Assembly (NCBI GenBank): GCA_011391595.1 | Contig: JAABQG010000002.1 | Coordinates: forward strand, 1-64,000 | Length of the DNA stretch: 64,000 nucleotides | Direction of reading: 5' to 3' | Source: Hydrogenophaga sp. | GTDB taxonomy: Bacteria; Pseudomonadota; Gammaproteobacteria; Burkholderiales; Burkholderiaceae_C | Shown: positions 22,434 through 62,633 of the stretch, piece by piece | How positions within the stretch are numbered: the first letter of the stretch is position 1 | How the letters are laid out: each line of letters begins with the position of its first letter | The notes under the pieces: model-generated | Databases searched by the model: none | Seen by the model: only the letters and a program-made list of their open reading frames with translations | Told to the model about the DNA's origin: nothing | Position numbers and translations under genes: made by a program

Positions 22434-23021
22434 TCAGGGCTGGACCTGGGCAAGAAGCGACTGGCGCATCGCAGGCTCGGAGGTGCCCGGGGAAAGCCAG
22501 ATGCCAAAGAACAGGCTGGCGAACTCGGCGTCGCGCACCTCGCCGAAGGGCTTTCCGTTGAGCAGGAAACGCACGCCGACGCCAGGGACATGCAAGCCGG
22601 CAATGCGGTCGCCCTTCTTGACATCCGGCAGGGCGTCGCGCAGCGCCACCTGCCATGCTTCGGCCTTGGCGTCGCTGAAGCGGCCGATGCGCCGCATCTC
22701 CTCGATGGAGCGCCCGGCAATGGCGGCGCCGGTGAAATCGCGCAGGTAGTCGAGTTCCAGCGCGAAGGCATGGCGCGTGAAGTCTGGCGCCTGAAACCCA
22801 GGACGCACCCACAGCGTGGCCTGGTACACGTCGAACCCCCAGAAGCGCAGTTTGGCGGAGCCGGCGAGCCGGGCGCCACTGAGCAGTGGCTGGGGAGTCG
22901 CCGCGATGGGCGATGAAGGCACGGGCGCAGCGCCGCCCTCGGTGCTGGCCGAAGCCAGGGCAGGGAAAACGACACAGCCCATCGTCAAATGGACCAGGAT
23001 TGCTATTGTTTTTGAAGTCAT
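22434..23021 (-). CDS. chalcone-isomerase-like periplasmic protein (Chalcone_3)
   Basis: The 195-residue protein has a signal peptide of about 25 residues (MTSKTIAILVHLTMGCVVFP...ASA). The following Chalcone_3 domain runs from ~LRFWGFDVYQATLWVRPGF through FALELDYLRDFTGAAIAGRSIEEMRR, PDVKKGDRIAGLHVPGVG and FFGIWLSPGTSEPAMRQSLL. Bacterial relatives bind fatty acids or haem; no isomerase activity is established. Nearly the whole hydrophobic core of the signal peptide (residues 4-19) is encoded by a copy of the interspersed repeat. The start overlaps the stop of the Cfa-like gene by 4 bp. Confidence 0.9.
   Translation of the reverse strand: MTSKTIAILVHLTMGCVVFPALASASTEGGAAPVPSSPIAATPQPLLSGARLAGSAKLRFWGFDVYQATLWVRPGFQAPDFTRHAFALELDYLRDFTGAAIAGRSIEEMRRIGRFSDAKAEAWQVALRDALPDVKKGDRIAGLHVPGVGVRFLLNGKPFGEVRDAEFASLFFGIWLSPGTSEPAMRQSLLAQVQP
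22966..23016 (+). repeat. interspersed repeat, copy 5 (encodes a signal peptide)
   Basis: AAAACGACACAGCCCATCGT, CAAATGGACCAGG and ATTGCTATTGTTTTT align with the other copies. Read on the opposite strand in the host frame it gives TIAILVHLTMGCVVF, the hydrophobic core of the signal peptide of the Chalcone_3 protein. Confidence 0.8.
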
Positions 23022-24235
23022 GGCCGGACCAGTGTGTATTGCACCACGTCGATGTTGGCTTCCGCAAAGGCCGCTTCGCAATAAGCGAGGTAGAACTCCC
23101 AGGTGTGCATGAACTTCTCGTCGAAGCCCTGCTGCATGACCTGCTGGCGGCGCGCCAGGAACTGCTCGCGCCAGCGGCGGAGCGTTTCGGCATAGTCGGC
23201 CCCAAAAGCGAATTCGTCGACCACCTGCAGTCCCGCGGCGGCGGCTTCCCGACGGAATTCGCGCGGGCAGGGCAGGCAGCCGCCCGGAAAGATGTACTGC
23301 TGGATGAAGTCGGTGGACTGGATGTAGCGGTCCCACAGGGCATCATCGATGACGATGCTCTGGATGCAGGCTTTGCCGCCCGGCTTCAGCAGCCGGTGAA
23401 CCGTCTGGAAGTAGGTGGGCCAGTATTCGCGGCCGACCGCCTCGACCATTTCGATGGAACAGATGGCATCGAACGGCGCATCCTTGATCTCACGGTAGTC
23501 CTGCAGGCGCAGCTCGGCGTGCTTCTGCGTTCCCAGTCTGCCCATTCGGGCCTGCGCGAACGCCAGTTGTTCGGTGGACAGCGTCACGCCGGTGATCGAG
23601 GCCTGGAATTCGGTGGTGGTCATTTCGGCCAGCGCGCCCCAGCCGCAACCAATCTCCAGCACGCGGTCACCCTGCGCAACACCAGCCATGCGCAAGGCGC
23701 GGCGCACCTTGGCATGCTGCGCGGCCTGCATCGGCTGGGTCAGGTCGCCGTCGAACCAGGCCGACGAATAGTTCATCGTGTCGTCAAGCCACAGCTCGTA
23801 GAACGCATTGCCGAGGTCGTAGTGGGCATGGATGTTCTTGCGGCTGTTGACCTTGCTGTTGCGATGCAGCAGATGGCGCAACCGGTACAGCAGTCGCCCG
23901 GCCCAGCTGCCGTGGATCACGTCCTCGACTTCGCGGCGATTGCGCACCAGCACCTGGATCAGGGTGGTCAGGTTCGGCGTGGTCCAGTCGCCGGCGATGT
24001 AGCTTTCTGCAAAGCCGATGTCGCCCGACTTGAGCGCGGCACCACAGACGTTCCAGTTCTTCAGCGTCATCGCCGCATGGGGCAGCGCGCCATTGCCGAA
24101 GCAATGGGTGTCGCCATTGGGCAACTGCATGGTCAGCGTGCCATGGCGAAGTTTCTTCAGCAGTTGCAGGACGCTTCGCGCGGCAGCGGGCGCACCGTGT
24201 GGCAGCGATGGGGTGGGGGCGGTGGTGGTGTTCAT
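23018..24235 (-). CDS. cyclopropane-fatty-acid-synthase family SAM methyltransferase
   Basis: The 405-residue enzyme has an N-terminal lipid-binding region and a SAM-methyltransferase core. The Cfa motifs HYDLGNAFYELWLDDTMNYSSAWF (residues 138-161) and VLEIGCGWGALAEM (192-205), then GVTLSTEQ, CSIEMVEAVG and QYIFPGGCLP, match cyclopropane fatty acid synthases. The conserved active-site cysteine and bicarbonate-binding residues (C..E..) are seen in the ICSIEMVE segment. In this operon type, homologues act on unsaturated acyl chains of phospholipids and may form methylated or furan fatty acids rather than cyclopropanes. It begins 54 bp after the DUF1365 gene. Confidence 0.92.
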   Translation of the reverse strand: MNTTTAPTPSLPHGAPAAARSVLQLLKKLRHGTLTMQLPNGDTHCFGNGALPHAAMTLKNWNVCGAALKSGDIGFAESYIAGDWTTPNLTTLIQVLVRNRREVEDVIHGSWAGRLLYRLRHLLHRNSKVNSRKNIHAHYDLGNAFYELWLDDTMNYSSAWFDGDLTQPMQAAQHAKVRRALRMAGVAQGDRVLEIGCGWGALAEMTTTEFQASITGVTLSTEQLAFAQARMGRLGTQKHAELRLQDYREIKDAPFDAICSIEMVEAVGREYWPTYFQTVHRLLKPGGKACIQSIVIDDALWDRYIQSTDFIQQYIFPGGCLPCPREFRREAAAAGLQVVDEFAFGADYAETLRRWREQFLARRQQVMQQGFDEKFMHTWEFYLAYCEAAFAEANIDVVQYTLVRP

Positions 24236-24289
24236 GGCCGGGTCGGTTTCAGGTCGTCGAACGGGGGGGCTTTGAAAATGGGTCAGGTT

Positions 24290-25075
24290 TCAGTGGCTCT
24301 GGCGGGTTACCAGATCGGTCGGTGGAACAGGCTTGCGCCAGAAAGGCACTTGTTTGAGCCACAGCCTGAGCGCCTGCCAGTGGATGCGCGCCACCACGCC
24401 CAGCGTCAGCGCCGGATAGCGCAGCAGTGCACGACGCAGGCTGGCCGGGGTCACGGGTTCCAGCGCGCCGCTGAGGCTGGTTTCGATCAATGGGCGGCCG
24501 TCAGCGTCGTCATGGTCGACACGGGCGACGATGCGCTCGATGCCGTCATGCGTGGTGCGCATGAAGCGGAAGCGGTAGCTGCCCTGCACGCTGCAGAACG
24601 GCGACACATGAAAGACCTTGTCGGCGCGCAGCGTGGCCCCATGGCGTGGCGCATCCAGCAGATAGCAGTGACGCTCGCCGAAGGTGTTGTTGACCTCCAC
24701 CACGATCGCGCGCAGGGCGTCCCCTGCCGTGTGGCAGTACCAGAAGCTCACCGGCTTGAAGGTGTGGCCCAGCACGCGGGGGTAAGTTTGCAGCCATATT
24801 TCACCGGTGGCGTCGGCGATGCCTTCGCGCTGAAGCAGTTCATCCAGCCAGGCCAGCGCTCCGCCCTGCTGTGGCCCGCGCCCATCGCCGTGGTCGCGGT
24901 CCTGAAAACTGAGCAGTGCGGGGCGGTTGACCGCCAGCGCCTGGCTGCCGTTGGCGCGCAGTTGCCGCATGGGCAGCATCAGGAAATAGGTGCCATAGGC
25001 AAACGCGTGGTGCGCGGGGTGCAGCCGCACGTGGCGGACTTGGCCGAAACCGATGAGAGGTCTTGCAGCGATCAC
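24290..25075 (-). CDS. DUF1365 protein
   Basis: A 261-residue protein of the DUF1365 family. It has an N-terminal HVRLHPAHHAFAYGTYFLMLPM, a PRVLGHTFKPVSFWYCHT segment, VVEVNNTFGERHCYLL, KVFHVSPFC and a C-terminal helix. DUF1365 proteins nearly always lie between a flavin amine oxidase gene and a cfa-like gene, as here, and are believed to act in the same lipid pathway. The start is GTG at 25075, overlapping the oxidase stop by 4 bp (GTGA). The conserved His and Asn-Asn residues suggest an enzyme, not just a chaperone, but no reaction is proven from sequence. Confidence 0.92.
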   Translation of the reverse strand: MIAARPLIGFGQVRHVRLHPAHHAFAYGTYFLMLPMRQLRANGSQALAVNRPALLSFQDRDHGDGRGPQQGGALAWLDELLQREGIADATGEIWLQTYPRVLGHTFKPVSFWYCHTAGDALRAIVVEVNNTFGERHCYLLDAPRHGATLRADKVFHVSPFCSVQGSYRFRFMRTTHDGIERIVARVDHDDADGRPLIETSLSGALEPVTPASLRRALLRYPALTLGVVARIHWQALRLWLKQVPFWRKPVPPTDLVTRQSH

Positions 25076-26427
25076 GCCGCCTCCAGTTCCGGCTCTGGCG
25101 CCGTGGCGGGCGCAGCACGGAGCGGCGCCGGTTTGTCTGCATCCTGCAGGAGCTGCCGCGCAGCACCGAGTCCGGCCTTGAGGCCGTCTTCGTGGAAACC
25201 ATAGCCCATCCACGCACCCGCGAAATAGGTGTGGTGCTGGCCCTGCAGCGCGGGGACGTGTTTCTGGGCGTGAATGGCGGCGAGGTCGAAGACCGGGTGG
25301 TCGTACTCGAATTCGCCGAGGATCTGCGCCTGGGAAATTTCTCGGACCGGGTTCAACGACACCACCACCGGTCGCTCGAACGGCAGCGGCTGCAGCCGGT
25401 TGATCAGATAGTGCAGGCACACGCGCGATGATTCCGTGGCGTCGCTGGCGGCGCGCTCGTAGTTCCACGCGGCCCAGGCCTTGCGGCGCGTGGGAAGCAC
25501 CGAGGTATCGGTGTGCAGCACCGCGCGGTTCGGCTGGTAGCGAATGGCGCCCAGTGCCCGGCGCTCGTCGCGCGAAGGGGCCTGCAGCAAGGCGAGTGAC
25601 TGGTCGGAGTGGGTGGCCAGGATCACCTTGTCGAAAGTATCGGTCCGGCCGTCGGTGACGACCCGCACGCCGTTCTCCGCAATGCAAGGGTCGCGCTCGA
25701 TGCGCCGCACCGGCGTGTTCAGGCGCTTGTCCGCGATGGTGGCGGTGATCTTCTCGACATAGTTGCGGGCGCCGCCCTGAACAGTCCACCATTGCGGGCG
25801 GTTGCTGACTTGCATCAGCCCATGGTTGTGACAGAAGCGAATCATCGTGGCCACGGGGAACTGCAGCATCTGGTCGGTCGGGCAGCTCCAGATACAGCCG
25901 AGCATGGGCAGGAAGTACCAGTCGCGGAACTCGGTGCTGAAGCGGTGCAGGGCCAGGAAATCGGCAAGGGGCTGCATCAGCGCGGCTTCCTGGTTGGCAC
26001 CCGCAATGCGGGTGCACAGCGCATTGAAGCGCAGCAGGTCCCGCAGCATCCGGATGAAGCGCGGGCTCAGGAGGTTGCCGCGCTGCGCAAACACTGTGTC
26101 GAGGCTGGAGCCACTCCATTCAAGCTTGCGACCGTTCAGCGCACCGGGCGCCTGGACCGAAAACGACATGTCCGACTTGACCGTTGCGACACCGAGTTCC
26201 TCAAAGAGCTGGATCAGGTGCGGGTAGGTACGCTCATTGAAAACCAGGAAGCCGGTGTCCACGCCATGGGTGACCAGTCCGGTCGGTGTTGAGAGCGTGA
26301 TGTCCACGGTATGGGTGTGTCCGCCAAAGTAGCGGCCGGCTTCAAACAGGGTGACGTCGGCGCGGCCGCGCAATGCGTGCGCCGCGGAAAGGCCCGAGAT
26401 ACCCGATCCGATGATCGCGACTTTCAT
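25072..26427 (-). CDS. FAD-dependent amine oxidase/desaturase-like protein
   Basis: The 451-residue flavoprotein starts MKVAIIGSGISGLSAAHAL, the GxGxxG FAD-binding fold (residues 7-16), followed by FEAGRYFGGHTHTVD, the GG...HT motif of the amine-oxidase/phytoene-desaturase group. It has VDTGFLVFNERTYPHL, a large substrate domain and the C-terminal YFAGAWMGYGFHEDGLKAG FAD contact. Cluster-mates include DUF1365 and a Cfa-like methyltransferase. In Rhodobacter the counterpart (RSP_1091-like) belongs to the sigma-E singlet-oxygen response and to furan fatty acid synthesis. An in-frame GTG/TTG start lies upstream, but the ATG at 26427 gives the normal N-terminus. Confidence 0.9.
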   Translation of the reverse strand: MKVAIIGSGISGLSAAHALRGRADVTLFEAGRYFGGHTHTVDITLSTPTGLVTHGVDTGFLVFNERTYPHLIQLFEELGVATVKSDMSFSVQAPGALNGRKLEWSGSSLDTVFAQRGNLLSPRFIRMLRDLLRFNALCTRIAGANQEAALMQPLADFLALHRFSTEFRDWYFLPMLGCIWSCPTDQMLQFPVATMIRFCHNHGLMQVSNRPQWWTVQGGARNYVEKITATIADKRLNTPVRRIERDPCIAENGVRVVTDGRTDTFDKVILATHSDQSLALLQAPSRDERRALGAIRYQPNRAVLHTDTSVLPTRRKAWAAWNYERAASDATESSRVCLHYLINRLQPLPFERPVVVSLNPVREISQAQILGEFEYDHPVFDLAAIHAQKHVPALQGQHHTYFAGAWMGYGFHEDGLKAGLGAARQLLQDADKPAPLRAAPATAPEPELEAA

Positions 26428-26903
26428 GGCGCGCTCCGATCCGGCGACGGGTTGGACAAGATTGCCGCGAAGCGCCCCCGGGCGAAGTGAGGAGGGAGGG
26501 AGAAGAAGCACCCGGGGATTTCAGCCAGGCATTGAATGCCCAGCTGGCTTCGCAGCATGAAACTGTTGGGATCAAGCGTGTTGCCCACCTTGGCTTTGAG
26601 GGAAGACCGGCGCCATGAGTTCCCGCGCCAGGCGGAAAATGGGCGGGTGGCTGCGTGAATTAAACTCTTTGTAAAAAATAAGACCATTTGGTATTATTGT
26701 GACTGCTCGGTATATATTTTTGCTAAGCGCGGTGTGATACCCCTCATTCTCACAGGGTTTTCAGGCAATGGCCGGCTTCGCAGGCTGTCCGGGCTGTCCG
26801 TCACACGGCGCCCCTGCCGATGCAACGCCATTTGGCGATTCTGTCAGTCGTGCGGCCTGGCCGTCGCGGGACGGCCGAGCTCAGCGTGCCCGAGGCGGCC
26901 GGC
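26428..26903. other. 476-bp gap with an AT-rich core between two minus-strand operons
   Basis: No credible gene is present on either strand; the short open frames lack any coding signature. The part at 26661-26731 is markedly AT-rich (TAAACTCTTTGTAAAAAATA, a TATTAT, a TATATA) in an otherwise GC-rich gap and must contain the promoter of the lipid cluster or a transcriptional boundary. At 26859-26876 there is a perfect stem (GGCCGTC/GACGGCC, 4-nt loop) downstream of ridA, without a U-tract. Confidence 0.6.
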
Positions 26904-28963: not shown

Positions 28964-28967
28964 GGCG

Positions 28968-30173
28968 CTACTCCTGCAGAACGGCCTTGCCGATGATGAG
29001 CAGCTGCACTTCGGTGGCGCCTTCGTAGATGCGCAGCGATCGGATGTCGCGGTACAGGCTTTCGACCTTGGCGCCGACCTCCACACCGCGCCCGCCGTGC
29101 ATTTGCAGCGCCATGTCGATCACTTTCTGGGCATTTTCAGTGGCGGTCATCTTGGCGGCCGCGGCGGCTACCGTTCGCTCGCGCGCGCTACCGGCACCGA
29201 GGTCGCGCATCCAGGCGGCGCGGTAGGTGAGCAGGGCGCCGGCGTCGATCAGCGCTGCCATCTCGCCGATCTTGGCCTGCGTGAGCTGGAAGTCCGCCAG
29301 CGTCTGGCCGAACATGCGGCGCTGGCGGACATGCTGCACCGCCTCGGCCAGCGCGCGGCGCGCCATGCCCAGTGCGGCCGCTGCCACCGAAGCACGGAAG
29401 ATGTCCAGCGTCTGCATCGCCAGCTTGAAGCCGCCGTTGACCTCGCCCAGCAGGGCCCCGACGGGCACCCGGCACCCTTCGAAGACCAGCGTCGCCAGCG
29501 GGTGCGGCGCCATCACGTGGATGGCGCGGCTGGCGTCCAGACCCGGGGTGCTGGCGTCCACGATGAAGGCGCTGATGCCGCGGCTGCCACCCTGCGGGTC
29601 GGTCTTGGCGAACACGCAGTAGAAATCGGCCAGTCCGCCGTTGCTGATCCAGGTTTTTTCGCCTTGCAGCACAAAATCAGCCTCTTTTTGCGCATCCCCC
29701 ATCGTCGAATGGTCATAAGTAGCTATGGTTTGCATAGCAGCCACATCCGAGCCGGCCTCTGGCTCGCTCAGCGCAAACGCCGCGATCTTGTCGCCCCGCG
29801 CCACGGCAGGCAAATAAGCCGCCTGCTGCGCCGGCGTGCCGGCCAGCGAGATCGCCCCGCTGCCCAGGCCCTGCATTGCAAACGCAAAGTCGGCCAGCGG
29901 CGAATGAAAAGCCAGCGTCTCACGCAGCACCACCAGCGCGCGCGAGTCCAGCGCCGGCAGCGCGCCGCCGTGTTCGGCGGCCACGCAGTAGCGCAGCCAG
30001 CCGCCGTCGCCCAGGCGGCGCACCCAGTCGCTGCAGGCGGCGCGATCGTCGGCCTCGTCAACCGCCTGGGCCGGCGTCCAGTCGCGCAGGCCGTCGGCCA
30101 GCTGGCGGTGGGCCGCGTCGAAGAAGGGCAGGCCCAGATGGCCGGTGGGTGCGCGCAGGTCGGTGGCGGCCAT
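28968..30173 (-). CDS. acyl-CoA dehydrogenase with a repeat-derived insert
   Basis: A 401-residue flavin-dependent acyl-CoA dehydrogenase, expected to take part in the beta-oxidation-like ring opening of the CoA thioester. SEPEAGSDVAAMQ contacts the FAD, GGRGVEVGAKVESLYRDIRSLRIYEGATEVQ carries the catalytic Glu in YEGATE. Between the SEPEAGSD and WISNGGLAD motifs the protein has an extra TYDHSTMGDAQKEA segment encoded by a repeat copy; that loop is normally short (the canonical text is GSDV...T.A...G....L.G.K.WI.N). The insert may be tolerated because it lies at the surface. The gene is followed by the aryl-CoA ligase at a 4-bp gap and preceded by a hydratase gene. Confidence 0.9.
   Translation of the reverse strand: MAATDLRAPTGHLGLPFFDAAHRQLADGLRDWTPAQAVDEADDRAACSDWVRRLGDGGWLRYCVAAEHGGALPALDSRALVVLRETLAFHSPLADFAFAMQGLGSGAISLAGTPAQQAAYLPAVARGDKIAAFALSEPEAGSDVAAMQTIATYDHSTMGDAQKEADFVLQGEKTWISNGGLADFYCVFAKTDPQGGSRGISAFIVDASTPGLDASRAIHVMAPHPLATLVFEGCRVPVGALLGEVNGGFKLAMQTLDIFRASVAAAALGMARRALAEAVQHVRQRRMFGQTLADFQLTQAKIGEMAALIDAGALLTYRAAWMRDLGAGSARERTVAAAAAKMTATENAQKVIDMALQMHGGRGVEVGAKVESLYRDIRSLRIYEGATEVQLLIIGKAVLQE
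29675..29733 (+). repeat. interspersed repeat, copy 6 (inside the acyl-CoA dehydrogenase gene)
   Basis: CTCTTTTTGCGCATCCCCCA, TCGTCGAATGGTCATAAGT and AGCTATGGTTT match the family. The opposite-strand reading frame gives TYDHSTMGDAQKEA, nearly the same peptide as copy 2 in the aminotransferase. Confidence 0.85.
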
Positions 30174-30174
30174 C

Positions 30175-31029: not shown

Positions 31030-31087
31030 ATCAGTTCTCCTGCAAGGGGGCGCCGGCGCTGTGGCGGGGTGTCGGGCGGGCGGGGGT

Positions 31088-31567: not shown

Positions 31568-31570
31568 GTT

Positions 31571-31636
31571 TGCTATGTAATCAGTAGCTAATTACGTCCG
31601 CTTCACGCTGGAAGCGTGCGCTTTTTGTTCGAAATC
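31571..31636 (-). repeat. interspersed repeat, copy 7 (overlaps the abmA 3' end and the marR upstream region)
   Basis: The minus-strand reading AAAAAGCGCACGCTTCCAGC, GTGAAGCGGACGT and AATTAGCTACTGATTACATAGC is a divergent copy. It provides the codons for the last residues of the AbmA-like protein ([10 protein letters not shown]) and all of the 35-bp spacer to marR, including the near-palindrome GTAATTAGCTACTGATTAC at 31578-31596. Confidence 0.7.
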
Positions 31637-33894
31637 TCGCGGTACAGCTGGTCCCGGCCGCTTTCATAGGGGCGCGGCCAGTTGGTGGCACGGCTCTGCA
31701 GCTTGGCGGCCTCGTGCAGCGTCCAGGCCGGGTCGGCGAGGTGCGGGCGGCCGACCGCGCACAGGTCGGCGCGGCCGGCGGCGATGATGCTGTTGGCGTG
31801 ATCGGCCTCGGAAATGGCGCCCACCGCCATGGTCGCGATATCCACCTCGTTTCGGATGCGGTCGGCAAATGGGGTCTGGTACATCCGGCCGTACACCGGT
31901 TTCGCCTCGCGCGTGGTCTGGCCGGAAGACACATCGATCAGGTCGCAGCCCGCGGCCTTGAACTGGCGTGCCATCAACACCGCGTCATCGTCGGTGTTGC
32001 CGCCGGGGGCCCAGTCGTGCGCCGAAATGCGCACGCTCATCGGCCGGTCGGACGGCCAGACGCCGCGCATCGCGGCGAACACCTCCAGCGGGTAGCGGCA
32101 GCGGTTCTCGATGGCGCCGCCGTAGGCGTCGTTGCGCTGGTTGGTCAGCGGGCACAGGAAACTCGACAGCAGGTAGCCGTGGGCGCAGTGCAACTCCAGC
32201 CAGTCGAAGCCGGCAGCCGCCGCCCGTCGCGTCGATTCGACGAACTGCGCGGTCAGCCGGTCCATGTCGGCGCGGGTCATGGCGCGCGGCGTCTGGTTCT
32301 GCGCGCCGTAGGCCATCGCGCTGGCGGCCATCAGCGGCCAGTTGCCCTCAGCTAGCGGCTCGTCGTTACCCTCCCAGCCGACGCGGGTCGAGCCCTTGGG
32401 GCCGCTGTGGCCGAGTTGCAGGCCGATGCGGGCGTCGCCCTGGCCGTGAATGAAGTCCACGATGCGCTTGAACGCGGCGGCATGCGTATCGCTCCAAAGA
32501 CCGGGGCAGCCGGGGGTGATGCGGCCCTCGGGCGTCGGGCTGGTCATCTCGACCATGACCATCGCCGCGCCGCCGAGCGCCCGCGCGCCCAGGTGCACCA
32601 GGTGGTAGTCCTGGACCACGCCGTCCACCGCGCTGTACTGCGCCATCGGCGAGACCACGATGCGGTTCTTCAACGTGAGACCCCGCAGCTTGAAGGGCGT
32701 CAGCATCGGCGGCATGACGGTGCCGCCGGAGAACCAGGCCTCGTAGCCTTCCAGCCACCGGGCGTCGCGCAGGCGCAGGTTTTCGTGGCTGATGCGCTGG
32801 CTGCGCGTGAGCATCGAGTACATGAACTGCTGCGGCGCGAAACGGTCGCAGTAGCGCTGGCCGCAAACTTCGAACCATGCCATCGCGTTCCAGGCTGCGT
32901 TCTGCAGCTTGAGCACCTCCACGTTGCGCACTTCCTGGTAGCGCGCCAGCACCTCGGGGATGTGCGCCGCGGTGTCGCCCATCTCGACGAACAGGCGTGT
33001 CAGCTCGATCGCATCCTCGATCGCCAGCTTGGTGCCTGAGCCGATCGCGAAGTGCGCGGTGTGGACTGCATCGCCCATCAGCACCACGTGGCTCTTGCCG
33101 TTGAACAACGACCACTGCTCGCACTTGACCCGCTGGAAGTTCAGCCAGGCTGACCCGCGCAGGTGGCGCGCGTTGGTCATCAGCTTGGCGCCTTGCAGGT
33201 TCTTTGCAAATACCTTCTCGCAGAAGGCGATGGATTCGGCCTGGTCGGCCAGGTCCAGGCGGTGCGCCTGCCAGACGTGCTCCGGGCACTCGACGATGAA
33301 GGTGGTGGTGGTCTCGTCGAACTTGTAGATGTGCGCCTGGAACCAGCCATGCTCGGTCTTCTCGAACAGGAAGGTGAAGGCGTCGTACAGCTTGTGCGTG
33401 CCCAGCCAGATGTAGCGGTTGGGGCGCAGCACGATGTCGGGTTTGAAGACGGCTTCGTACTTGGTGCGGATCTTGGAGAAGATGCCGTCGCTGGCGATGA
33501 TCAGGTCGGCGTCCGGGAAATCCTCGTCCGAGTTCACGTCGGTGTCGAAGACCAGCTTGACCGCCAGCTGCTCGCACCGCCTCTGCAGGATATTCAGCAG
33601 CTTCTTGCGGCCGATACCGACGAAGCCGTGGCCGCCCGAGCGGATCACCTCGCCCTTGAACTCCAGCTCGATGTCGTCCCAGTGGTTGAAGGCCTGCTCG
33701 ATCTCGGCGGCGGTGACCGGGTCCCACTGGCGCATGTTGTCCATGGTCGCGTCGGAGAACACCACGCCCCAGCCGAAGGTGTCGTAGGGCTTGTTGCGCT
33801 CGACCACGGTGATGTCGTGCGCCGGGTTGCGCATCTTCATCAGCAGGCCGAAATACAGGCCGGCGGGGCCGCCGCCGATGCAGACGATCTTCAT
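31603..33894 (-). CDS. abmA: 2-aminobenzoyl-CoA monooxygenase/reductase (AbmA-type; salicylyl-CoA 5-hydroxylase-like)
   Basis: A 763-residue two-domain flavoprotein. Residues 1-~385 are a flavin monooxygenase ([22 protein letters not shown], and the DG and [22 protein letters not shown] motifs). Residues ~395-763 are an old-yellow-enzyme-like reductase ([24 protein letters not shown], then [24 protein letters not shown] and [11 protein letters not shown]). This fusion hydroxylates the CoA-bound aromatic ring at C5 and reduces it in the same protein, the key step of the aerobic 2-aminobenzoyl-CoA pathway of Azoarcus evansii. Genes annotated as salicylyl-CoA 5-hydroxylase are the same family, so the exact ring substituent is an inference from neighbours. 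The ATG at 33894 is preceded by GGAGCG. Confidence 0.92.
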
Positions 33895-45220: not shown

Positions 45221-45928
45221 ATGAACCCCGAAACGTCCCTGCACCAGCGTCGCCGCCTGCCGCGTCGCGAAGAACTGGAAGGCATCCCCTGGCTGGCGCT
45301 GCTGCAGCCGCTTGAGCGCGAACGCGCGGTGGAGGAGCTGCGCATGGGTGACGCACAGGCCGGCGACTACGTGTGCCGCATCGGTCGTCCCATCACCTAC
45401 TGGTTCGGCGTCGTCGAAGGGTTGCTGAAAATGAGCAGCGACAACGCCGAGGGCCAGACCATGACCTTCACCGGGGTGCCCCCTGGCGGCTGGTTCGGCG
45501 AGGGCACGGCGCTCAAGCGCGAGGTCTATCGTTACAACATCCAGGCCCTGCGCAAGAGCGTCGTAGCCGGCCTGCCGGTGGACACCTTCCACTGGCTGCT
45601 GGACCATTCCATCGGCTTCAACCGTTTCGTGATGAACCAGCTCAACGAGCGGCTCGGGCAGTTCATTGCCGCGCGCGAGATCGACCGCATGAACAAGCCG
45701 GAACTGCGCGTGGCGCGCAACCTGGCCTCGCTGTTCAACCCGGTGCTCTACCCCGGTGTGGGCGAGGTGTTGCGCATCACGCAGCAGGAGCTGGCTTATC
45801 TGGTGGGCCTGTCGCGGCAGCGCGTGAACGAGGCGCTGACTGCGCTGGCGGCCCGGGGGCTGATCCGCGTCGAATACGGCGGCCTGCGCGTGCTGGACCT
45901 CGCGGGGCTACGGTCGGGTGAATTTTGA
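45221..45928 (+). CDS. Crp/Fnr-family regulator of the acyl-CoA ligase/Liv operon
   Basis: A 235-residue regulator. The N-terminal cNMP-type beta roll (residues ~40-130) includes GDYVCRIGRPITYWFGVVEGLLKM and PPGGWFGEGTALKREVYRYNIQALRKS. A dimerisation helix follows, then an HTH (ITQQELAYLVGLSRQRVNEALTALAARGLIRVEYGG). It lacks the four Cys ligands of Fnr and the cAMP-binding R-S motif of true Crp, so it probably senses another small molecule, perhaps an acyl-CoA or organic acid. It is divergent from the ligase gene and has the operator between them. Confidence 0.93.
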   Translation: MNPETSLHQRRRLPRREELEGIPWLALLQPLERERAVEELRMGDAQAGDYVCRIGRPITYWFGVVEGLLKMSSDNAEGQTMTFTGVPPGGWFGEGTALKREVYRYNIQALRKSVVAGLPVDTFHWLLDHSIGFNRFVMNQLNERLGQFIAAREIDRMNKPELRVARNLASLFNPVLYPGVGEVLRITQQELAYLVGLSRQRVNEALTALAARGLIRVEYGGLRVLDLAGLRSGEF

Positions 45929-47689: not shown

Positions 47690-47875
47690 GCGGAAGGAAA
47701 CGAATAAACCAGTTGCAGACAGACTTGGATTCCTGTTTTTCCGAGGTGTGAGATGGTCGTCTGACCCTGATTTCCGCGGATGTGGGCTCGCGCGAGATCG
47801 ACCGCATGAACAAGCCCGGACTGCGGTTGCTGAACGTCTCCGGGCGGCGTTCCCGCAGGTTTTGATGGTCAAATA
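47690..47875 (+). pseudogene. remnant of a Crp/Fnr-family gene
   Basis: Bases 47788-47829 (GCGCGCGAGATCGACCGCAT, then GAACAAGCCCGGACTGCG) are nearly identical to part of the intact regulator at 45673-45712 (GCGCGCGAGATCGACCGCAT, GAACAAGCCGGAACTGCG). The upstream portion also shows a shorter match to the same gene (AACCAGTTGCAGACAGACTTG versus AACCAGCTCAACGAGCGGCTC). Stops and frame breaks interrupt it. It is a degraded paralogue or a duplicated scrap. Confidence 0.7.
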
Positions 47876-47925
47876 GGCCTCTCCCCAGCGTCAAATGGTC
47901 GCTGACAGCTACAGAAGTAATAGTT
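47870..47925 (+). repeat. interspersed repeat, copy 8 (upstream of the pseudouridine synthase)
   Basis: AAATAGGCCTCTCCCCAGCG, TCAAATGGTCGCTGAC and AGCTACAGAAGTAATAG match the family. Its end carries AGAAG at 47912-47916, which sits at ribosome-binding distance from the start of the following gene. Confidence 0.8.
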
Positions 47926-50359: not shown

Positions 50360-51394
50360 ATGAACATTCGCACTTTCAAAACCATAGCGTTCAGTGTCCT
50401 TTTGACGCTGGGCTCTGCCACTTTGCAGGCCCAAACCGGCACCGTCAATGCCATTTGCAGCACCGACGGCCCCTGGTGCGAACTCGCGGCGAAGGAATTC
50501 ACGCGCCAGACCGGCATCAAAGTGTTCCAGTCGCACAAGGCCACCGGCGAGGCGCAGGCCCAGCTGCGCGCCGAGGCCGCCAACCCCAAGACCGACATCT
50601 GGTGGGGCGGCACCGGCGACCCGTATTACCAGGCGGCCGAGGTCGGGCTGCTCGACCCCTACCGGCCGGCCTACCTGGCCGATCTGCATGGCTGGTCCGT
50701 GCGCCAGTACGCGATGAGCCAGAACCATGTGGGCGGCTTCTACACCAGCGCCATCGGTTTCGGCTGGAACGAGGAGGTGCTCAAGAAGAAGAACCTGCCC
50801 GCGCCCAAGTGCTGGAAAGACCTGCTGAACCCGATCTACAAGGGCGAGATCGAGACCTCGCACCCGGCGTCCAGCGGCACGGCCTACACCATCCTGGCCG
50901 GCCTGGTGCAGCTGATGGGCGAGGACGCGGCCTTCGACTACCTCAAGAAGCTGCACAAGAACATCACCCAGTACACGCGCAGCGGCCAGGCCCAGGCGCG
51001 CAGCGTGGGCAAGGGCGAGGTCGGCATCGGCATCAGCTTCATCTTCGGTTTCGAAAATGAGCGCATCACCAACAAGTTTCCGGTGCAGTCGGTGGCGCCC
51101 TGCGAGGGCACCAGCTACGAGATCGGCGGCATCGCGCTGGTCAAGGGTTCGCGCAACAAGGAAGGCGCCAAGCGCTATTACGACTGGCTCATGAGCCCGG
51201 AAGGCCAGCAGATCGGCGCGCGCGCCAACAGCCTCCAGGTGCCGGCCAACAAGACCTTCACGCCCGATCCGCGCATCCCCTCGATCGACAAAGTGCGCCT
51301 GATCAAGTACGACTTCGAGAAATACGGCAAGGCCGCCGAACGGCGCCGGCTGGTGGACCGCTGGACCCGCGAAGTGGAGTCCCTGCCGCGATAA
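50360..51394 (+). CDS. iron-type (AfuA/FbpA-like) ABC binding protein, orphan
   Basis: A 344-residue periplasmic binding protein with a signal peptide (residues 1-25, MNIRTFKTIAFSVLLTLGSATLQAQ). It has TGTVNAICSTDGPWCELAAKEFTRQTGIKV, WWGGTGDPYYQAAEVGLLDPYRP, and SSGTAYTILAGLVQLMG. The family includes iron(III), phosphonate, thiamine and putrescine-type binders. There is no adjacent permease or ATPase gene, so ligand and partner are unknown. A terminator follows the gene and overlaps the htpG promoter. Confidence 0.88.
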   Translation: MNIRTFKTIAFSVLLTLGSATLQAQTGTVNAICSTDGPWCELAAKEFTRQTGIKVFQSHKATGEAQAQLRAEAANPKTDIWWGGTGDPYYQAAEVGLLDPYRPAYLADLHGWSVRQYAMSQNHVGGFYTSAIGFGWNEEVLKKKNLPAPKCWKDLLNPIYKGEIETSHPASSGTAYTILAGLVQLMGEDAAFDYLKKLHKNITQYTRSGQAQARSVGKGEVGIGISFIFGFENERITNKFPVQSVAPCEGTSYEIGGIALVKGSRNKEGAKRYYDWLMSPEGQQIGARANSLQVPANKTFTPDPRIPSIDKVRLIKYDFEKYGKAAERRRLVDRWTREVESLPR

Positions 51395-51400
51395 TCAGCG

Positions 51401-53455: not shown

Positions 53456-53472
53456 GCCTCGCGGCCGTACTC

Positions 53473-53506
53473 CATTCCAGCCGGCGTCTAGACGGCCGGC
53501 TGAATG
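53473..53506 (+). terminator. candidate hairpin terminator after htpG
   Basis: CATTcCAGCCGGC and GCCGGCTGAATG form a long stem just after htpG, but no T-run follows. It may be a weak terminator between the convergent htpG and pldA genes. Confidence 0.5.
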
Positions 53507-53539
53507 GCGTGCGCCGGGTCAAAAGCCGGTTAGGGCTGA

Positions 53540-53602
53540 AAATTCAAGAAAAACAGGCTTATCCCAGCGTCAGATGGTCATCATCCGCTATTGATTGAGG
53601 AG
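53540..53602 (+). repeat. interspersed repeat, copy 9 (htpG-pldA intergenic)
   Basis: AAAACAGGCTTATCCCAGCG, TCAGATGGTCATCATC and CGCTATTGATTGAGG, between convergent genes. One of the best-preserved copies. Confidence 0.85.
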
Positions 53603-53611
53603 TATTCTGGC

Positions 53612-54706: not shown

Positions 54707-55026
54707 GGCCACAGACGGAAAAGGTTGACGGGACGACGGACGCGCCAGTGGCGCGACCGAGATTCAGGATGGGCCCCATCCTCGGTCAGCAGGCGCCCAT
54801 CGTCTGTGGGCTGGCGCACACAGTGGGATGGATGCCGCAACGAGGGCGCGCCCAGGCCGCTGGCGTGGGTCGCAGCGGTCACGACGGGTCTGTCGTGATG
54901 ATTTACAAGAAGTTCTGGCCATTTCCCAGCGTCAAATGGTCATTAATAGCTATGAATAAGAGAGCAAATCTCGCGTCGTGCTTTGGCGTCCGAGCCGCCG
55001 CATCCGGCGCGCCTTACCATCACGCC
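54707..55026. other. divergent intergenic region between pldA and the MoxR gene
   Basis: Contains repeat copy 10 and no convincing gene. The promoters of both divergent genes must be here but no strong hexamer pair is visible. Confidence 0.5.
54903..54960 (+). repeat. interspersed repeat, copy 10
   Basis: TTACAAGAAGTTCTGGCCAT, TTCCCAGCGTCAAATGGTCA and TTAATAGCTATGAATAAGAG. Close to the family consensus; lies 70 bp upstream of the MoxR-type gene. Confidence 0.9.
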
Positions 55027-56415: not shown

Positions 56416-56430
56416 GAAGGCTGCGCTGCC

Positions 56431-57915: not shown

Positions 57916-57945
57916 CTTCCGGAACAACCCCACTGGAGTCGAAAG

Positions 57946-58380: not shown

Positions 58381-58405
58381 CCCGTTCCCGGGGGCGCAGG
58401 TCCGG

Positions 58406-58419
58406 ATCGCCCGGGCGAT
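58406..58419. other. 14-bp perfect palindrome between convergent genes
   Basis: ATCGCCC and GGGCGAT abut as a perfect palindrome between the secreted-protein gene and the convergent kinase-like gene. Too short for a terminator; it may be chance in GC-rich DNA. Confidence 0.35.
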
Positions 58420-58420
58420 T

Positions 58421-59317
58421 TCAGCGAGGCCGCAGGCAGGACGACATCGCGTCGGCCAGGATGGCCAGGCGCGCGGCCCCCTTGCGTTCACGGCCTTTCA
58501 CCGTTCGTCCGCGCAGGGGCGCGGTCAGCCAGGCCAACCCGGCGACCCAGGGCAGGGCGCGCACCAGGGTCTGGCGCACGCGCGGGTCAGGGTTCTCCGC
58601 CAGGCAGGTGTCCAGCAGTTGCGGCAGGAGCTGGCGGGACTCGGCCTCGTTGAACGGGGCGACCAGTGAAACCGAGTTGAGGAAAAGGACGATGTCCAGC
58701 GCCTGGGCGACCGGCAAGGGCACGAGGTCGCCAAAGGTTTCCTCGAAGTCGATGCGCCAGGTGTGGCCGCCCTTGCGGGTCAGGTTCTTGATCTGGGCCG
58801 CGCCATGCCACTGGCCGGCCCGGTGAAACAGGCCGAGTTCGCGGGCCTCTGCCTGAAGCTCGCGGCGGCAGGTGTCGAGCGGCCAGCGCCCGATCTGGTC
58901 GCCGAGCGTGGCGCCGCAGTGCGCCATCACCAGGTAGCCGGGCCCGCAATGGATCAGCTTGGGCACACGCACGCCGGCATGGGCCAGCGCGGTCAGCCGC
59001 TGCGCTTCGAAGTCGACACTGGACGCCGCCTCGGACAGCCGCAGCGTCGCCATCGGCAAAGCCTGTCCGGTGATCGACTTCACCAGCCATCGCACGAAAA
59101 ATGACTGCAGGCGCGAACGGGGGCGAACGGCCACGCGCTTGAGCACAAGCGGCTGCCCCGCGTGCTCGATGATCACGACGCGGTCCGTGCTGGCGGCCAG
59201 CGCGGCTTGCACGGCTTCGGCGAGCGGGTGGTCGGTGGGGGCGGGGTGATCGGGGTGGTGGGTCAAGGAAATGGGTCGCAAGGATGGCGGTCGAGCCCCC
59301 GGTGCCGGGCGGGTCAT
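58421..59317 (-). CDS. BUD32/WaaP-like protein kinase-fold protein
   Basis: A 298-residue protein with a kinase-like core. VVIIEHAGQPLVLKRVAVRPRSRL carries the likely ATP-binding Lys. The putative catalytic loop is LGLFHRAGQWHGAAQIKNLT (H-x-A-G-x-x-H-G-A-x-Q-x-K-N), and IDFEETFGDLVPL carries the D-F-E/D-type metal site. It resembles BUD32-like or LPS heptose/Kdo kinases (WaaP), where the HG...N and DFE/DF motifs are used. Linkage to two glycosyltransferase genes downstream is compatible with envelope polysaccharide phosphorylation. The N-terminal 30 residues are Pro/His-rich and may not be translated if a later start is used. Confidence 0.75.
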   Translation of the reverse strand: MTRPAPGARPPSLRPISLTHHPDHPAPTDHPLAEAVQAALAASTDRVVIIEHAGQPLVLKRVAVRPRSRLQSFFVRWLVKSITGQALPMATLRLSEAASSVDFEAQRLTALAHAGVRVPKLIHCGPGYLVMAHCGATLGDQIGRWPLDTCRRELQAEARELGLFHRAGQWHGAAQIKNLTRKGGHTWRIDFEETFGDLVPLPVAQALDIVLFLNSVSLVAPFNEAESRQLLPQLLDTCLAENPDPRVRQTLVRALPWVAGLAWLTAPLRGRTVKGRERKGAARLAILADAMSSCLRPR

Positions 59318-59463
59318 CGATTATCCACGGCCCCGCGGGCGCGTCGGGGCGGCCCTGACCTCCATCGTTTACCATCAGATGGGCCGCGCCGGGCATTCCA
59401 CAGGCCGGTACCGCCCCCGCCACGCCGACGCATCACGCCTCCCGTCTTCCGCCGATCCGAACC

Positions 59464-60990
59464 ATGCCCCCTGTGGAAAGCCGCTGGCAATCACTCCCCG
59501 ACCGGGCCCATTCGATCGCCCTCCTGATTGCCGGCTTCACCGTGCTGCGCCTGCTGCTGGCCGCCACCGCGCCTTTGCTGCCGCAGGAGGCCTACTACTG
59601 GAGCTGGAGCCGGCACCTGGACTGGTCGTATTTCGACCACCCGCCGCTGGCCACCTACAGCATGGCGCTGACCACGGCGCTTTTTGGCCAGACGGCCTTC
59701 GGCATCAAGTCCGCCGCGGTGCTGTGGTCGCTGGGATGGAACCTGCTCTGGGTGCGTCTGATCCTGGACATGTATGGCGACCGCCGGCTCGCGTTCTGGA
59801 GCGTCGCCGCGCTGAACCTCACCTTCGTGTACGAGGCCTTCGGGCTGGCGCCGACGCCCGACAGCCCGCTGATCTTCGCCTGGACCGGCGCCATCTGGGC
59901 GGTCTGGCGCCTGAGCCAGAGCGGCGACGGACGCTGGTGGTTCGCCGCCGGCGGCTTCATCGGTCTCGCCATGCTGGGCAAGTATTCCGGCGTGCTGCTG
60001 GGGCCGGTGGTGCTGCTGTACCTGCTGACGTCGCCGCGCCAGCGCCACTGGTTCCACAAGCCGCAGCCCTACCTGGCGGTTGGCGTGGCGGTCGCAGTGT
60101 TCGCGCCGGTCCTGATCTGGAATGCCCAGCACGAATGGGTGTCCCTGGCCTTCCAGAGCAGCCGGCGGGTCGGCGAGATGGGCGGCTTCAAGCCGCGCTA
60201 CTTCCTGATGCTGGTCGCCACCCAGTTCCTGTTGCTCACGCCTTACCTGTTCGTGGTCGCCATGGGCGCGCTGCTGCGCGGCGCGCGCGGCGGACTCGGC
60301 GCGGCAGTGGACGACCGCACCCGGCTGCTGCTGCTGAGCGGCGCGGTGCCGATCCTGGTGTTCACCTTCGTCAGCTTTCGCTCGATTGCCAAGATCAACT
60401 GGCTGGCGCCGGCCTACTGGTCGCTGATGATCCTGGGTGTGCAGGTCCTGCTGGCGCGAGAGGGTGGCCTGCGCCGCCTGCTGCGCGGCCTGGCGTCCTC
60501 GGCGGCCCTGCTGCTGGCGGCGGGCCTGGTGTTCTGGATACCGAACCTGCCGGTGCCTGGCGACCTGAACAGCTGGAGTGGCTGGGCCGAGGCGTCAGCG
60601 CGGGTCGCGAAGGCCGAAGCCGCGGTGCGCGCCGAGGGCAAGGAGACCTTTGTCTTTTCCCCGAATTACAAGATCAGCTCGCTGATCCGCTTCTACCTGC
60701 CCGGCCAGCCTCACACCTATGCCCACGACATCTACGGTGACAAGGCGCTGCAGTTCGACTACTTCCCGCTCGATCGCGACCTGCGCGGCGCCACCGGTAT
60801 CCTGGTGGTGTCGGACCAGGACGCGGGCGACCTGGACCTGGCCCGGCTCAAGCCTTGGTTCGATTCGGTGGAGCGCATCGACACGGTGGAGGCGCGCGCC
60901 TTCGGCAAGGTCACCCGGCGTGTGGACATCTACCGCGCCACCAGCTACCGGGGCCATCCGCGGTGGCCGGCATCGCGCACGATGCCGTGA
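59464..60990 (+). CDS. GT39/ArnT-like dolichyl-type glycosyltransferase
   Basis: A 508-residue integral membrane glycosyltransferase of the PMT_2/GT39 family. It has about 11-13 helices in the first 380 residues, beginning LLIAGFTVLRLLLAATAPLLPQEAYYWSWSRHLDWSYFDHPPL. The first periplasmic loop carries the acidic/aromatic motif (EAYYWSW...YFDHPPL) in which the Glu/Asp is used for catalysis. The C-terminal domain is periplasmic. Family members use polyprenyl-phosphate sugars to modify proteins or lipid A. The next gene provides a polyprenol-phosphate sugar transferase. Confidence 0.9.
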   Translation: MPPVESRWQSLPDRAHSIALLIAGFTVLRLLLAATAPLLPQEAYYWSWSRHLDWSYFDHPPLATYSMALTTALFGQTAFGIKSAAVLWSLGWNLLWVRLILDMYGDRRLAFWSVAALNLTFVYEAFGLAPTPDSPLIFAWTGAIWAVWRLSQSGDGRWWFAAGGFIGLAMLGKYSGVLLGPVVLLYLLTSPRQRHWFHKPQPYLAVGVAVAVFAPVLIWNAQHEWVSLAFQSSRRVGEMGGFKPRYFLMLVATQFLLLTPYLFVVAMGALLRGARGGLGAAVDDRTRLLLLSGAVPILVFTFVSFRSIAKINWLAPAYWSLMILGVQVLLAREGGLRRLLRGLASSAALLLAAGLVFWIPNLPVPGDLNSWSGWAEASARVAKAEAAVRAEGKETFVFSPNYKISSLIRFYLPGQPHTYAHDIYGDKALQFDYFPLDRDLRGATGILVVSDQDAGDLDLARLKPWFDSVERIDTVEARAFGKVTRRVDIYRATSYRGHPRWPASRTMP

Positions 60991-61076
60991 GCGGGACACT
61001 TGCGGTGAAAATACATACTTTGGGCCCTTGCCCGGAATGAAACAATCGCAGGGCTGCCCTGCAAAAAAGGTAGGAC

Positions 61077-62174
61077 ATGCCACAGCTTTCCGTCATCGTG
61101 CCGACGTTCAACGAGATCGGCAACGTCGTCGAACTGCGGGACCGGGTCGCCAAGGCCCTCGACGGGATCGACTGGGAGATGATCTACGTCGATGACAACT
61201 CGCCCGACGGCACGGCGCAGGCGGTGCGTGACATGGCCCAGCAGGACCGGCGCGTGCGCTGCATCCAGCGCATCGGCCGGCGGGGGCTGTCCACCGCCTG
61301 CATCGAGGGCATGCTGGCCTCGTCGGCGCCCGTGGTGGCGGTGATCGACGCCGACCTGCAGCACGACGAGCGCCTGCTGCCAAAGATGCTCGAACTGATC
61401 CAGGGCGGCGAACTTGATGTCGTCGTCGGCAGCCGCTATGTGGAGAGCGGTGGCATCGGCACCTGGGACGAATCGCGCGCCGCGTTCAGCCGCTGGGCCA
61501 CCCGGCTCAGCCGGGTGGTGCTCAAGGCCGACCTCCAGGACCCGATGAGCGGCTTCTTCATGATCCGCCGCGACGCGGCCGTGGACTGCATCAAGGCCGG
61601 CGTCTCGGGGGTCGGCTTCAAGATCCTGCTGGACCTGTTCGCCACCTCGCCAACCCCGCTGCGCTACCGCGAACTGCCCTACGAGTTCCGCAACCGTGTC
61701 GCGGGCGAAAGCAAGCTCGACACGAACGTGGCCTGGGAATACTTCATCATGCTGCTGGACAAATTCATGGGCGGCGTGGTGCCGATCCGCTTCATCGCGT
61801 TCTCGCTGGTGGGCGGGTTCGGCCTGATCGTGCACCTGATCGTCCTGTGGGCGATGTTCAAGGGCGCGGGCACCACGTTCCTGTGGGCGCAGACGGGCGC
61901 GACGATGGTGGCCATGACCAGCAATTACGTGATGAACAACGTGCTGACCTACCGTGACATGCGCTTGCATGGCTGGAGCTTCGTGCGCGGCTGGTTTTCA
62001 TTCGTGCTGGCCTGCAGCGTGGGCGCGCTGGCCAATGTCGGCATTGCCGACTACCTGTTTCACAAGGAAGGCAGCTTCTGGGTGTCGTCGGCCATTGCGG
62101 GGGTGCTGGTTGGCGCGGTCTGGAACTATGCCGTGACGGCGGTCTACACCTGGAAGAAGCCCAAGGCGGGCTGA
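61077..62174 (+). CDS. GT2-GtrA fusion, polyprenol-phosphate glycosyltransferase/flippase
   Basis: A 365-residue protein with two domains. Residues 1-~235 are a GT2 domain (SVIVPTFNEIGNVVELRDRV, YVDDNSPDGTAQ, VIDADLQHDERLLPKML with the DAD metal motif, and GSRYVESGGIG) of dolichol-phosphate mannosyltransferase type. Residues ~240-365 form a four-helix GtrA domain (RFIAFSLVGGFGLIVHLIVLWAMF to ALANVGIADYLF). The GT2 part makes polyprenyl-phosphate sugar, and GtrA is thought to flip it, so the pair with the upstream GT39 enzyme forms a complete sugar transfer route. Confidence 0.92.
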   Translation: MPQLSVIVPTFNEIGNVVELRDRVAKALDGIDWEMIYVDDNSPDGTAQAVRDMAQQDRRVRCIQRIGRRGLSTACIEGMLASSAPVVAVIDADLQHDERLLPKMLELIQGGELDVVVGSRYVESGGIGTWDESRAAFSRWATRLSRVVLKADLQDPMSGFFMIRRDAAVDCIKAGVSGVGFKILLDLFATSPTPLRYRELPYEFRNRVAGESKLDTNVAWEYFIMLLDKFMGGVVPIRFIAFSLVGGFGLIVHLIVLWAMFKGAGTTFLWAQTGATMVAMTSNYVMNNVLTYRDMRLHGWSFVRGWFSFVLACSVGALANVGIADYLFHKEGSFWVSSAIAGVLVGAVWNYAVTAVYTWKKPKAG

Positions 62175-62180
62175 GCTGAA

Positions 62181-62633
62181 TTATTGCCAGCCTGGCAGCT
62201 TGCGCAGCACGAAGCTGCGCTCCTTCCTGTCGGCAGTGGCCGTCCAAACGCCGCTGATTTCCTTGCCGCAGGCGTCGGCGACGACGGCACCCGCCCAGGT
62301 GGCGGAGATGGACCGCCCGTCGGTGGATTCCTCCAGCGTGAACTCGCCTTTGTCCACGTCGCCCGCCACCTGTGCTTCGATCGTGCCCCGGCGGATGCTG
62401 CCGCGCAGACTGTCCGGGTGATCGGGGTTGCGCCCCAGCGTCAACGTGCCGGGTGCGTCCACCCCCTCCCAGCGCGCCTGCCAGGCGCCATACAGGTGCA
62501 GCGCGGTGACTTCCGTGGCCCGAGGGCAGGCAGCAGGACTGTTTTGAGGACTATTTTGGGCATTGGCCAGCGTCAAATGGACGCTGGTAGCTATCAATAG
62601 AGTAGCCAAAAGGAGCGTTTTGAAAGGTTTCAT
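62181..62633 (-). CDS. small secreted protein whose signal peptide includes a repeat
   Basis: A 150-residue exported protein. The signal peptide (residues 1-26, MKPFKTLLLATLLIATSVHL...NAQ) is partly encoded by a repeat copy: residues 13-29 (LIATSVHLTLANAQNSP) fall within it. The mature domain has two or three cysteines and a beta-rich pattern (LHLYGAWQARWEGVDAPGTLTLGRNPD, GEFTLEESTDGRSISATWAGAVVADACGKEISGVW). It resembles no family I can name. It lies 8 bp before the Rep-type helicase gene ends on the same strand, so it may be transcribed with it. Confidence 0.8.
   Translation of the reverse strand: MKPFKTLLLATLLIATSVHLTLANAQNSPQNSPAACPRATEVTALHLYGAWQARWEGVDAPGTLTLGRNPDHPDSLRGSIRRGTIEAQVAGDVDKGEFTLEESTDGRSISATWAGAVVADACGKEISGVWTATADRKERSFVLRKLPGWQ
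62545..62603 (+). repeat. interspersed repeat, copy 11 (encodes a signal peptide; near-perfect hairpin)
   Basis: TTTTGAGGACTATTTTGGGC, ATTGGCCAGCGTCAAATGGA, CGCTGGTAGCTATCAATAGA. The core CCAGCGTC-AAATG-GACGCTGG is a perfect 8-bp stem with a 5-nt loop and is probably closest to the ancestral element. The opposite strand codes for part of the signal peptide of the 62181-62633 protein. Confidence 0.9.

Follow-up and report, generated by a model that had tools for sequence, protein, structure and literature searches.

The window considered here is a stretch of 64,000 nucleotides from Hydrogenophaga sp. (assembly GCA_011391595.1, contig JAABQG010000002.1, positions 1 to 64,000 of the forward strand). 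In two of its genes, one for a Chalcone_3 protein and one for a small exported protein, the signal peptide is encoded in part by a copy of the same interspersed repeat, read antisense. This raises the question of how one DNA repeat comes to lie within the N-termini of two unrelated exported proteins. A preliminary description had proposed that the repeat is a ready-made module, which newly converts cytosolic proteins to exported ones. The results presented here suggest that these are probably old in-frame copies at permissive protein sites, whose spelling has been replaced genus by genus alongside that of the non-coding copies.

One repeat in two signal peptides

A 66-position sequence model of the repeat, R1, was built from 30 seed copies from the genome of the window (G000). 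The seed includes four copies from the window (4221, 47868, 53540 and 54902) and neither of the two signal peptide copies. An unfiltered R1 scan of the window detects 13 copies at E<2e-6, including the two in signal peptides, and the next match is at E=0.031; the overlap of the two genes with the repeat is therefore real.

The Chalcone_3 (PF16036) protein of 195 aa is encoded at 22434..23021 on the minus strand (Pfam 2.5e-10). Translated from the ATG at 23021(-), it begins with MTSKTIAILVHLTMGCVVFPALASA.., an N-terminal signal peptide of which codons 2-16 are antisense to a repeat copy at 22974..23018(+) (25.5 bits, E=4.8e-7). Covering just model positions 21-65, this copy is incomplete and the weaker of the two. 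The small exported protein, 150 aa, is encoded at 62181..62633 on the minus strand and has no family in Pfam or NCBIfam scans at E 0.1. Its translation from the ATG at 62633(-) begins with MKPFKTLLLATLLIATSVHLTLANAQNSP.., and here codons 10-29 of the signal peptide are antisense to a copy at 62548..62606(+) (33.5 bits, E=1.5e-9). Of the two start codons, that at 23021 shares an ATGA with the stop of the upstream open reading frame (ORF) 23018-24235, and that at 62633 is 8 bases after the stop of ORF 62642-63964; judged from this arrangement, both starts appear credible. The earlier proposal thus holds in that one repeat family, through its open antisense frame, provides a hydrophobic segment of two unrelated exported proteins, as found with a model trained on neither copy.

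The small-protein copy also contains a perfect 8-base palindrome at 62567-62587, CCAGCGTC, a 5-base loop and GACGCTGG, without a counterpart in the genus consensus.

Dialects of the repeat and their presence at coding sites

The repeat is the genus dialect of a family-wide, AT-rich interspersed repeat of about 44-66 bp, found in one betaproteobacterial family, Comamonadaceae by its named best matches. A pattern search with an 18-base core and up to 2 mismatches found 83 copies in the genome of the window, the source of the 30 seed copies of R1, and 0 with the reversed control. There are 108 R1 copies at E<=0.01 in the 863,368 bases sampled (the window and 40 further stretches) of this 3.37 Mb genome. 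Most copies are intergenic, often at gene ends.

Whole-genome counts with R1 are lower bounds, the candidates scored in each genome being capped at 130 or 150. In a first set of family and order members, R1 found nothing among the candidates scored in 36 of 38, at least 3 and at least 1 weak matches in G013 and G020, respectively, and many in the congener, G001. In a second set there are at least 59 matches in G042, at least 148 in G059 and at least 12 in G064, with none among the candidates scored in 7 others. Other genera have a hairpin, or classic, dialect containing AGCGCTT..AAGCGC. Allowing up to 3 mismatches, the pattern GATAGCTNNNAGCGCTT(7)AAGCGC occurs 381 times in G011 and 242 times in G005, with some sites counted twice, once per strand; in G000 and G001, and with the reversed control, it has 0 matches. 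Across 300 genomes of the order, at least 20 matches were found in 3 of 9 family genomes (194, 98 and 21) and in 0 of 291 others. The pattern search behind the dialect matrices described below was not clean as a stand-alone separator of genomes and was set aside for that use: it found 1 match in G059 (reversed control 2) and 1 in G019, the genomes in which R1 has its at least 148 matches and none among the candidates scored, respectively.

In several other genera, the orthologous genes have a repeat copy at the corresponding place in the protein, in their own dialect. This was seen by scoring sites in four genes, none of them among the training copies, against matrices of the dialects. Shuffles kept the dinucleotides for the small protein and the Chalcone_3 protein (60 each) and the base counts only for the CCA-adding enzyme and acyl-CoA dehydrogenase (40 each). 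A search of 59 other family genomes gave matches to the small protein in 15. With the genome of the window included, 11 of 16 N-termini score 19.5-48.1, the largest shuffle maximum among them being 14.1, and 5 score below 0 and are repeat-free. The signal peptide sites of this protein are among the hairpin-type matches in G011 (C9:86418-86447, 0 mismatches) and G005 (C1:3453034-3453063, 1 mismatch), and the site in G059 (C12:10580-10641) is matched by R1 at E=1.4e-4. The Chalcone_3 protein has matches in 35 of the 59 genomes; with the genome of the window these make 36, of which the matrix test covered 30. Five of these 30 are above their own shuffles (G056, G052, G011, G042 and G043); in G011 and G043 the copy is across the start, not on the hydrophobic core.

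For the CCA-adding enzyme, tested in 30 of 39 genomes, the loop scores above 0 in 14, 11 of these being above the shuffle maximum, and below -4 in the other 16. The own dialect is best in G000, G056, G042 and G011. The loops of G016 and G005, which are of the classic type as is G011, prefer the G011 matrix, G005 by just 0.1 over another dialect. The acyl-CoA dehydrogenase loop motif is present in 17 of 21 loci, and 4 of the 21 are above the shuffle maximum; G000 picks its own dialect and G016 the classic. Over the four genes, the best dialect is that of the genome's own group at all 18 sites if the three classic genomes are merged, and strictly its own at 14.

Loop lengths in the CCA-adding enzyme were obtained from the 88 of 110 loci holding the motif, the named genomes included. 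Of the 14 repeat-positive loops 12 could be measured, 9 of them having 21-33 residues and 3 having 15. The commonest length over all 88 is 11 residues (28 loops), followed by 17 (14 loops, mainly in Burkholderia and Paraburkholderia). At the same codons, a Polaromonas metagenome-assembled genome (L205) has AATTCAATAGCT, which was not scored, and in Polaromonas sp. JS666 (L206) the loop is GC-rich and has a length of 23. GC-rich loops of 21-33 residues are also found in the repeat-free G041, G055 and Limnohabitans, where they may be decayed copies or unrelated expansions. Two records titled Akkermansia muciniphila (L216) and Cytophagales (L247) have CCA genes close to those of this family and are possibly mislabelled or contaminated bins.

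Signal peptides with and without the repeat

Repeat copies also supply part of the signal peptide of two more proteins of the window. An extracellular solute-binding protein (SBP_bac_6/8; 50360..51394(+), Pfam 5e-27) has the signal peptide MNIRTFKTIAFSVLLTLGSATLQAQ, of which codons 5-22 are antisense to a non-seed copy at 50372..50423(-) (31.9 bits, E=4.9e-9). A Peptidase_M48 and TPR protein (13858..15366(+), Pfam 8.4e-31) has a non-seed copy in the sense frame, at 13832..13892(+), over its GTG start and codons 1-12 of its signal peptide, MKRSLIAIILIALLVSPAGWTQTQ (23.8 bits, E=1.6e-6). The sampled stretches add an M16 peptidase at L067:6566, for which the Pfam query started three codons ahead of the ATG, and a DUF547 protein at L066:12758. 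Candidates at L046:13270 and L052:14272 were excluded, their starts being unclear. Solute-binding, M48-TPR, M16 and DUF547 proteins are typically exported.

When consensus strings of five dialects, made by hand, are translated, the antisense frame is open in every one, and the other two frames mostly are not. Among the individual copies in the sample this frame is open over the full matched length in 68 of 108. Its consensus in the genus of the window is charged, ..IAxxDHLTLG.., and in the classic dialect fairly hydrophobic (consensus LIAASACLTSARGQ, made by hand, with 1.77 as its best hydropathy over 11 residues). The signal peptide copies are the more hydrophobic variants, mostly through a change of Asp to Val. 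Of the 108 copies, 14 have a core interrupted by a stop and were left out; among the rest, core hydropathy is 1.06-2.13 in 5 signal peptide copies, compared to a mean of 0.23 in 89 others (maximum 1.9; p=0.0002), 11 of which attain the lowest signal peptide value. The sense-frame copy at 13832 does not belong to these five. The base that changes the Asp codon to Val is present in 4 of 5 signal peptide copies and in 16 of 102 others (p=0.004), with one gapped copy left out of the count.

All five repeat-free orthologues of the small protein have, by inspection, a signal-peptide-like N-terminus, so that export is not dependent on the repeat. Their best 12-residue hydropathy is 2.01-2.68, which by itself adds little, since the 75th percentile of 716 genes of the window's own genome is already 1.99. 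The repeat-free Chalcone_3 homologues inspected likewise have hydrophobic N-terminal stretches, several of their starts being unsettled. A signal peptide of similar sequence in orthologues lacking the repeat had been named beforehand as evidence for a chance likeness. Such orthologues do have a signal peptide, but it differs in sequence, therefore the similarity to the repeat is not due to chance.

Copies in loops of cytosolic enzymes

The same antisense frame is also used within cytosolic enzymes. Copies of 37.5-49.7 bits are in frame in the genes for acyl-CoA dehydrogenase, the CCA-adding enzyme, a FolM-like SDR and TlyA, and weaker ones in those for MurI (26.7 bits) and MnmE (25 bits). The acyl-CoA dehydrogenase of the window (401 aa, 28968..30173(-), Pfam 1e-42) has its copy at 29683..29738(+), antisense and translated as AMQTIATYDHSTMGDAQK (37.7 bits, E=7.2e-11); in its protein context this reads GSDVA[AMQTIATYDHSTMGDAQKE]ADFVL. 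That of the CCA-adding enzyme reads RRDL[TINSIAIEDHSTLGNGQNILKS]GPESHLVDPYGG. On alignment to the best solved relative in the PDB, all six enzyme copies lie in loops. The net loop gain over these relatives is +9 residues in acyl-CoA dehydrogenase (against 5jsc), +11 in the CCA-adding enzyme, 0 in the SDR, +13 in TlyA, +3 in MurI and +4 in MnmE.

A further antisense, in-frame copy, a member of the seed, is located at 4221..4283(+) in ORF 3604-5115(-) (55.2 bits, E=2.6e-16), inside a class IV aminotransferase domain that spans residues 234-467 (Pfam 3.2e-40). A weak sense-frame copy (17 bits) is present at L042:3004-3060 in an ABC exporter, where it falls between the membrane domain and the ATPase domain.

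Origin of the coding copies

Since the antisense frame is free of stops in all five translated dialect consensuses, copies could persist in frame within genes where the protein tolerates foreign residues, and signal peptides and surface loops would be such permissive niches. On the simplest account, the copies at orthologous coding sites are likely to be old. Each genus has probably rewritten its copies since, those in coding sequence included, by concerted evolution; the route may have been ectopic gene conversion, replacement time and again, or selection acting on a site at the DNA level. Purifying selection on the signal peptides would then retain the hydrophobic core, as in the change of Asp to Val. 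An existing export segment would thus be a niche that the repeat rewrites, export itself not being created by it. That the genus dialect is imposed upon conserved proteins by a selfish or DNA-level drive, with selection merely trimming the result, is proposed more tentatively; it could well be so, yet falls a little short of being the better bet.

The proposal that the repeat frame is an export signal, newly converting cytosolic proteins, is very improbable. Several signal peptides do overlap copies, and the classic frame is fairly hydrophobic. Against this, N-termini that resemble signal peptides exist without the repeat in every repeat-free small-protein orthologue, the genus consensus has DH in its core, the same frame is used in cytosolic enzymes, and the families concerned are usually exported. 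Still less credence can be given to a chance resemblance of hydrophobic codons or to true starts further downstream. The Chalcone_3 copy is partial and in one test below its shuffle maximum, but E values of 1.5e-9 and 4.8e-7 were obtained with a model not trained on these copies, the orthologues show the pattern again in their own dialects, and the ATGA overlap supports the start at 23021.

Independent insertion at shared permissive hotspots in each genus, for instance by a RAYT-like transposase, in place of one old copy rewritten where it stands, is an unlikely but serious contender. It would suit the CCA tree, in which repeat-bearing and repeat-free genera are mixed, but would need repeated strikes at the same CCA codon boundary (..TIN-S/A-IA..) and at the same segment of further genes. 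The sole Y1_Tnp (RAYT-like) gene found in the genome, L178:1159-1866(-), has a copy over its 3' end (L178:1106-1165) and a second at 3242-3305, about 1.4 kb past its 5' end. However, copies at the 3' end are found in 42 of 780 sampled genes, therefore this neighbour says little, and the RAYT as mover was dropped as evidence of mechanism. A DNA-level functional site, resembling an uptake sequence or bound by a protein, is rather unlikely; it would be kept by selection or transformation drive, its dialects tracking a co-evolving DNA-binding protein. The high copy number, the single dialect in each genus and the agreement of coding with non-coding copies would be expected of such a site, and DNA uptake sequences are reported to have dialects at the family level and intragenic copies in permissive regions (PMC3630211). 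No binding protein was identified here, however. The repeat also exceeds an uptake sequence, a 12-mer, in length and is more degenerate.

Several observations weigh against old copies rewritten in place. The net gain of 0 to +13 residues at the in-gene sites is smaller than the 15-22 codons of the element and the SDR site is length-neutral, so that native residues have been lost too and insertion alone does not fully account for these sites. In the single-gene CCA tree the repeat-bearing genera are not one clade; independent gains or many losses are therefore possible and the sites are not phylogenetically independent, and the tree was set aside as an arbiter, deciding neither for one old copy nor for several gains. 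The congener G001 (78% complete), the sole congener searched, matches neither focal protein, and the focal sites could therefore not be followed within the genus. Scored with the 44-nt dialect matrix, the Chalcone_3 copy in G000 prefers its own dialect and yet is under the shuffle maximum (5.9 vs 9.6), the one such case in the 18 dialect choices. Three of the 18 are near ties (39.9 vs 39.2 and 5.9 vs 5.2 in G000; 4.7 vs 4.6 for the CCA loop of G005), and the CCA loops of G052, G003 and G013 are counted as positive without being above their shuffles. The antisense frame has a stop in 40 of the 108 copies, and the signal peptide copy at L067 retains Asp. The five signal peptide copies were chosen partly by eye, and the assignment of signal peptides is based on inspection and hydropathy. 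Neither a donor nor a target duplication or conversion tract came to light.

Should the reading of old, rewritten copies be correct, it would clearly exemplify concerted evolution passing from non-coding repeats into conserved proteins, seen as genus dialects at the same codons, and natural genomes would directly show which protein sites tolerate a foreign peptide. It is also a warning that in this family the repeat can drive the annotation of signal peptides and start sites.

Comparison with known repeats

Small repeats lying in frame within genes have been published before, as has one signal peptide derived from a repeat. Rickettsia palindromic elements (RPE) are small repeats of about 150 bp found in frame in unrelated genes of Rickettsia (review, PMC10969869). 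Residence in frame in unrelated protein genes is shared with them, but the repeat described here is 44-66 bp, is found in another class, has dialects between genera and lacks a consensus fold in the dialect of the window, hence the palindromic hairpin of an RPE. The enterobacterial RU-2 repeat provides the signal peptide of a Yersinia protein, YPO1552 of Y. pestis (Delihas 2007, PMC2759123); the part of that paper available describes no orthologous, dialect-following copies in other genera.

Repetitive extragenic palindromic (REP) sequences are palindromes of 20-40 bp, tagged at one end with GTAG or CGTC, have high copy numbers, are found at gene ends and in convergent gaps with some copies in ORFs, and include different REPs near the same recB site in two Xanthomonas species (PMC3733652). 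High copy number, gene ends, convergent gaps and in-ORF copies are common to both, but the repeat here has no consensus pairs and is not a tagged palindrome. The genome of the window has one RAYT-like gene with an adjacent copy. By eye, GCGTC is inside the core of the window's dialect, not at its end, and does not occur in the classic pattern. The BRE of Bordetella and other Betaproteobacteria are usually intergenic, some lying wholly within coding sequences, and in Bordetella are about 90 bp with 69% GC (PMC3110155). The present repeat is likewise betaproteobacterial, mostly intergenic and in some cases inside coding sequence, but differs in size and in GC, the 13 window copies having 39-50%. 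The DNA uptake sequence of the Neisseriaceae is a short, family-wide sequence in lineage-specific dialects, with intragenic copies (PMC3630211). Its likeness to the present repeat, known here from sequence alone, covers each of these features, but the element here is longer and degenerate. What sets the present repeat apart from RPE, in-ORF REPs and RU-2 is that its copies in coding sites follow the dialects throughout the family. In the open-licence literature, with most subscription papers outside the search, no description was found of this repeat family or of coding copies that follow a dialect from genus to genus.

Other copies and gene context

The remaining copies in the window are non-coding or at gene ends. 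Copies between convergent genes are located at 537..591(+) (25.6 bits), at 16396..16456(-) (41.5 bits), where a 3' end is covered, and at 53540..53603(+) (51.2 bits; seed copy). The copy at 31572..31635(-) (25 bits) is over the 3' end of gene 31603-33894(-) and provides its stop. An intergenic copy is present at 17044..17103(-) (23.7 bits), and two seed copies lie between divergent genes at 47868..47924(+) (44.9 bits) and 54902..54965(+) (52.7 bits).

An Rfam scan of the window at the gathering threshold gave 0 matches. The consensus fold of the 108 aligned copies has 0 pairs, the dialect of the window's genus not being palindromic, and no RNA hairpin is therefore claimed for it. The boundaries of the repeat in the alignments are not sharp. 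By gene context, 80 of the 108 copies are intergenic (26 convergent, 24 and 23 co-directed, 7 divergent), 25 are inside genes and 3 at edges; of 430 background gaps of at least 60 bases, 50 are convergent and 96 divergent. These counts are biased, since the gene caller favours GC-rich codons and sets starts too far downstream, beyond the copies, so that both focal copies and that at 13832 are classed as intergenic; enrichment at gene starts over chance is not claimed. The window also contains a 37-base direct repeat, 95% identical and 2.1 kb apart (45672-45708 and 47789-47825), which by eye is outside this repeat family.

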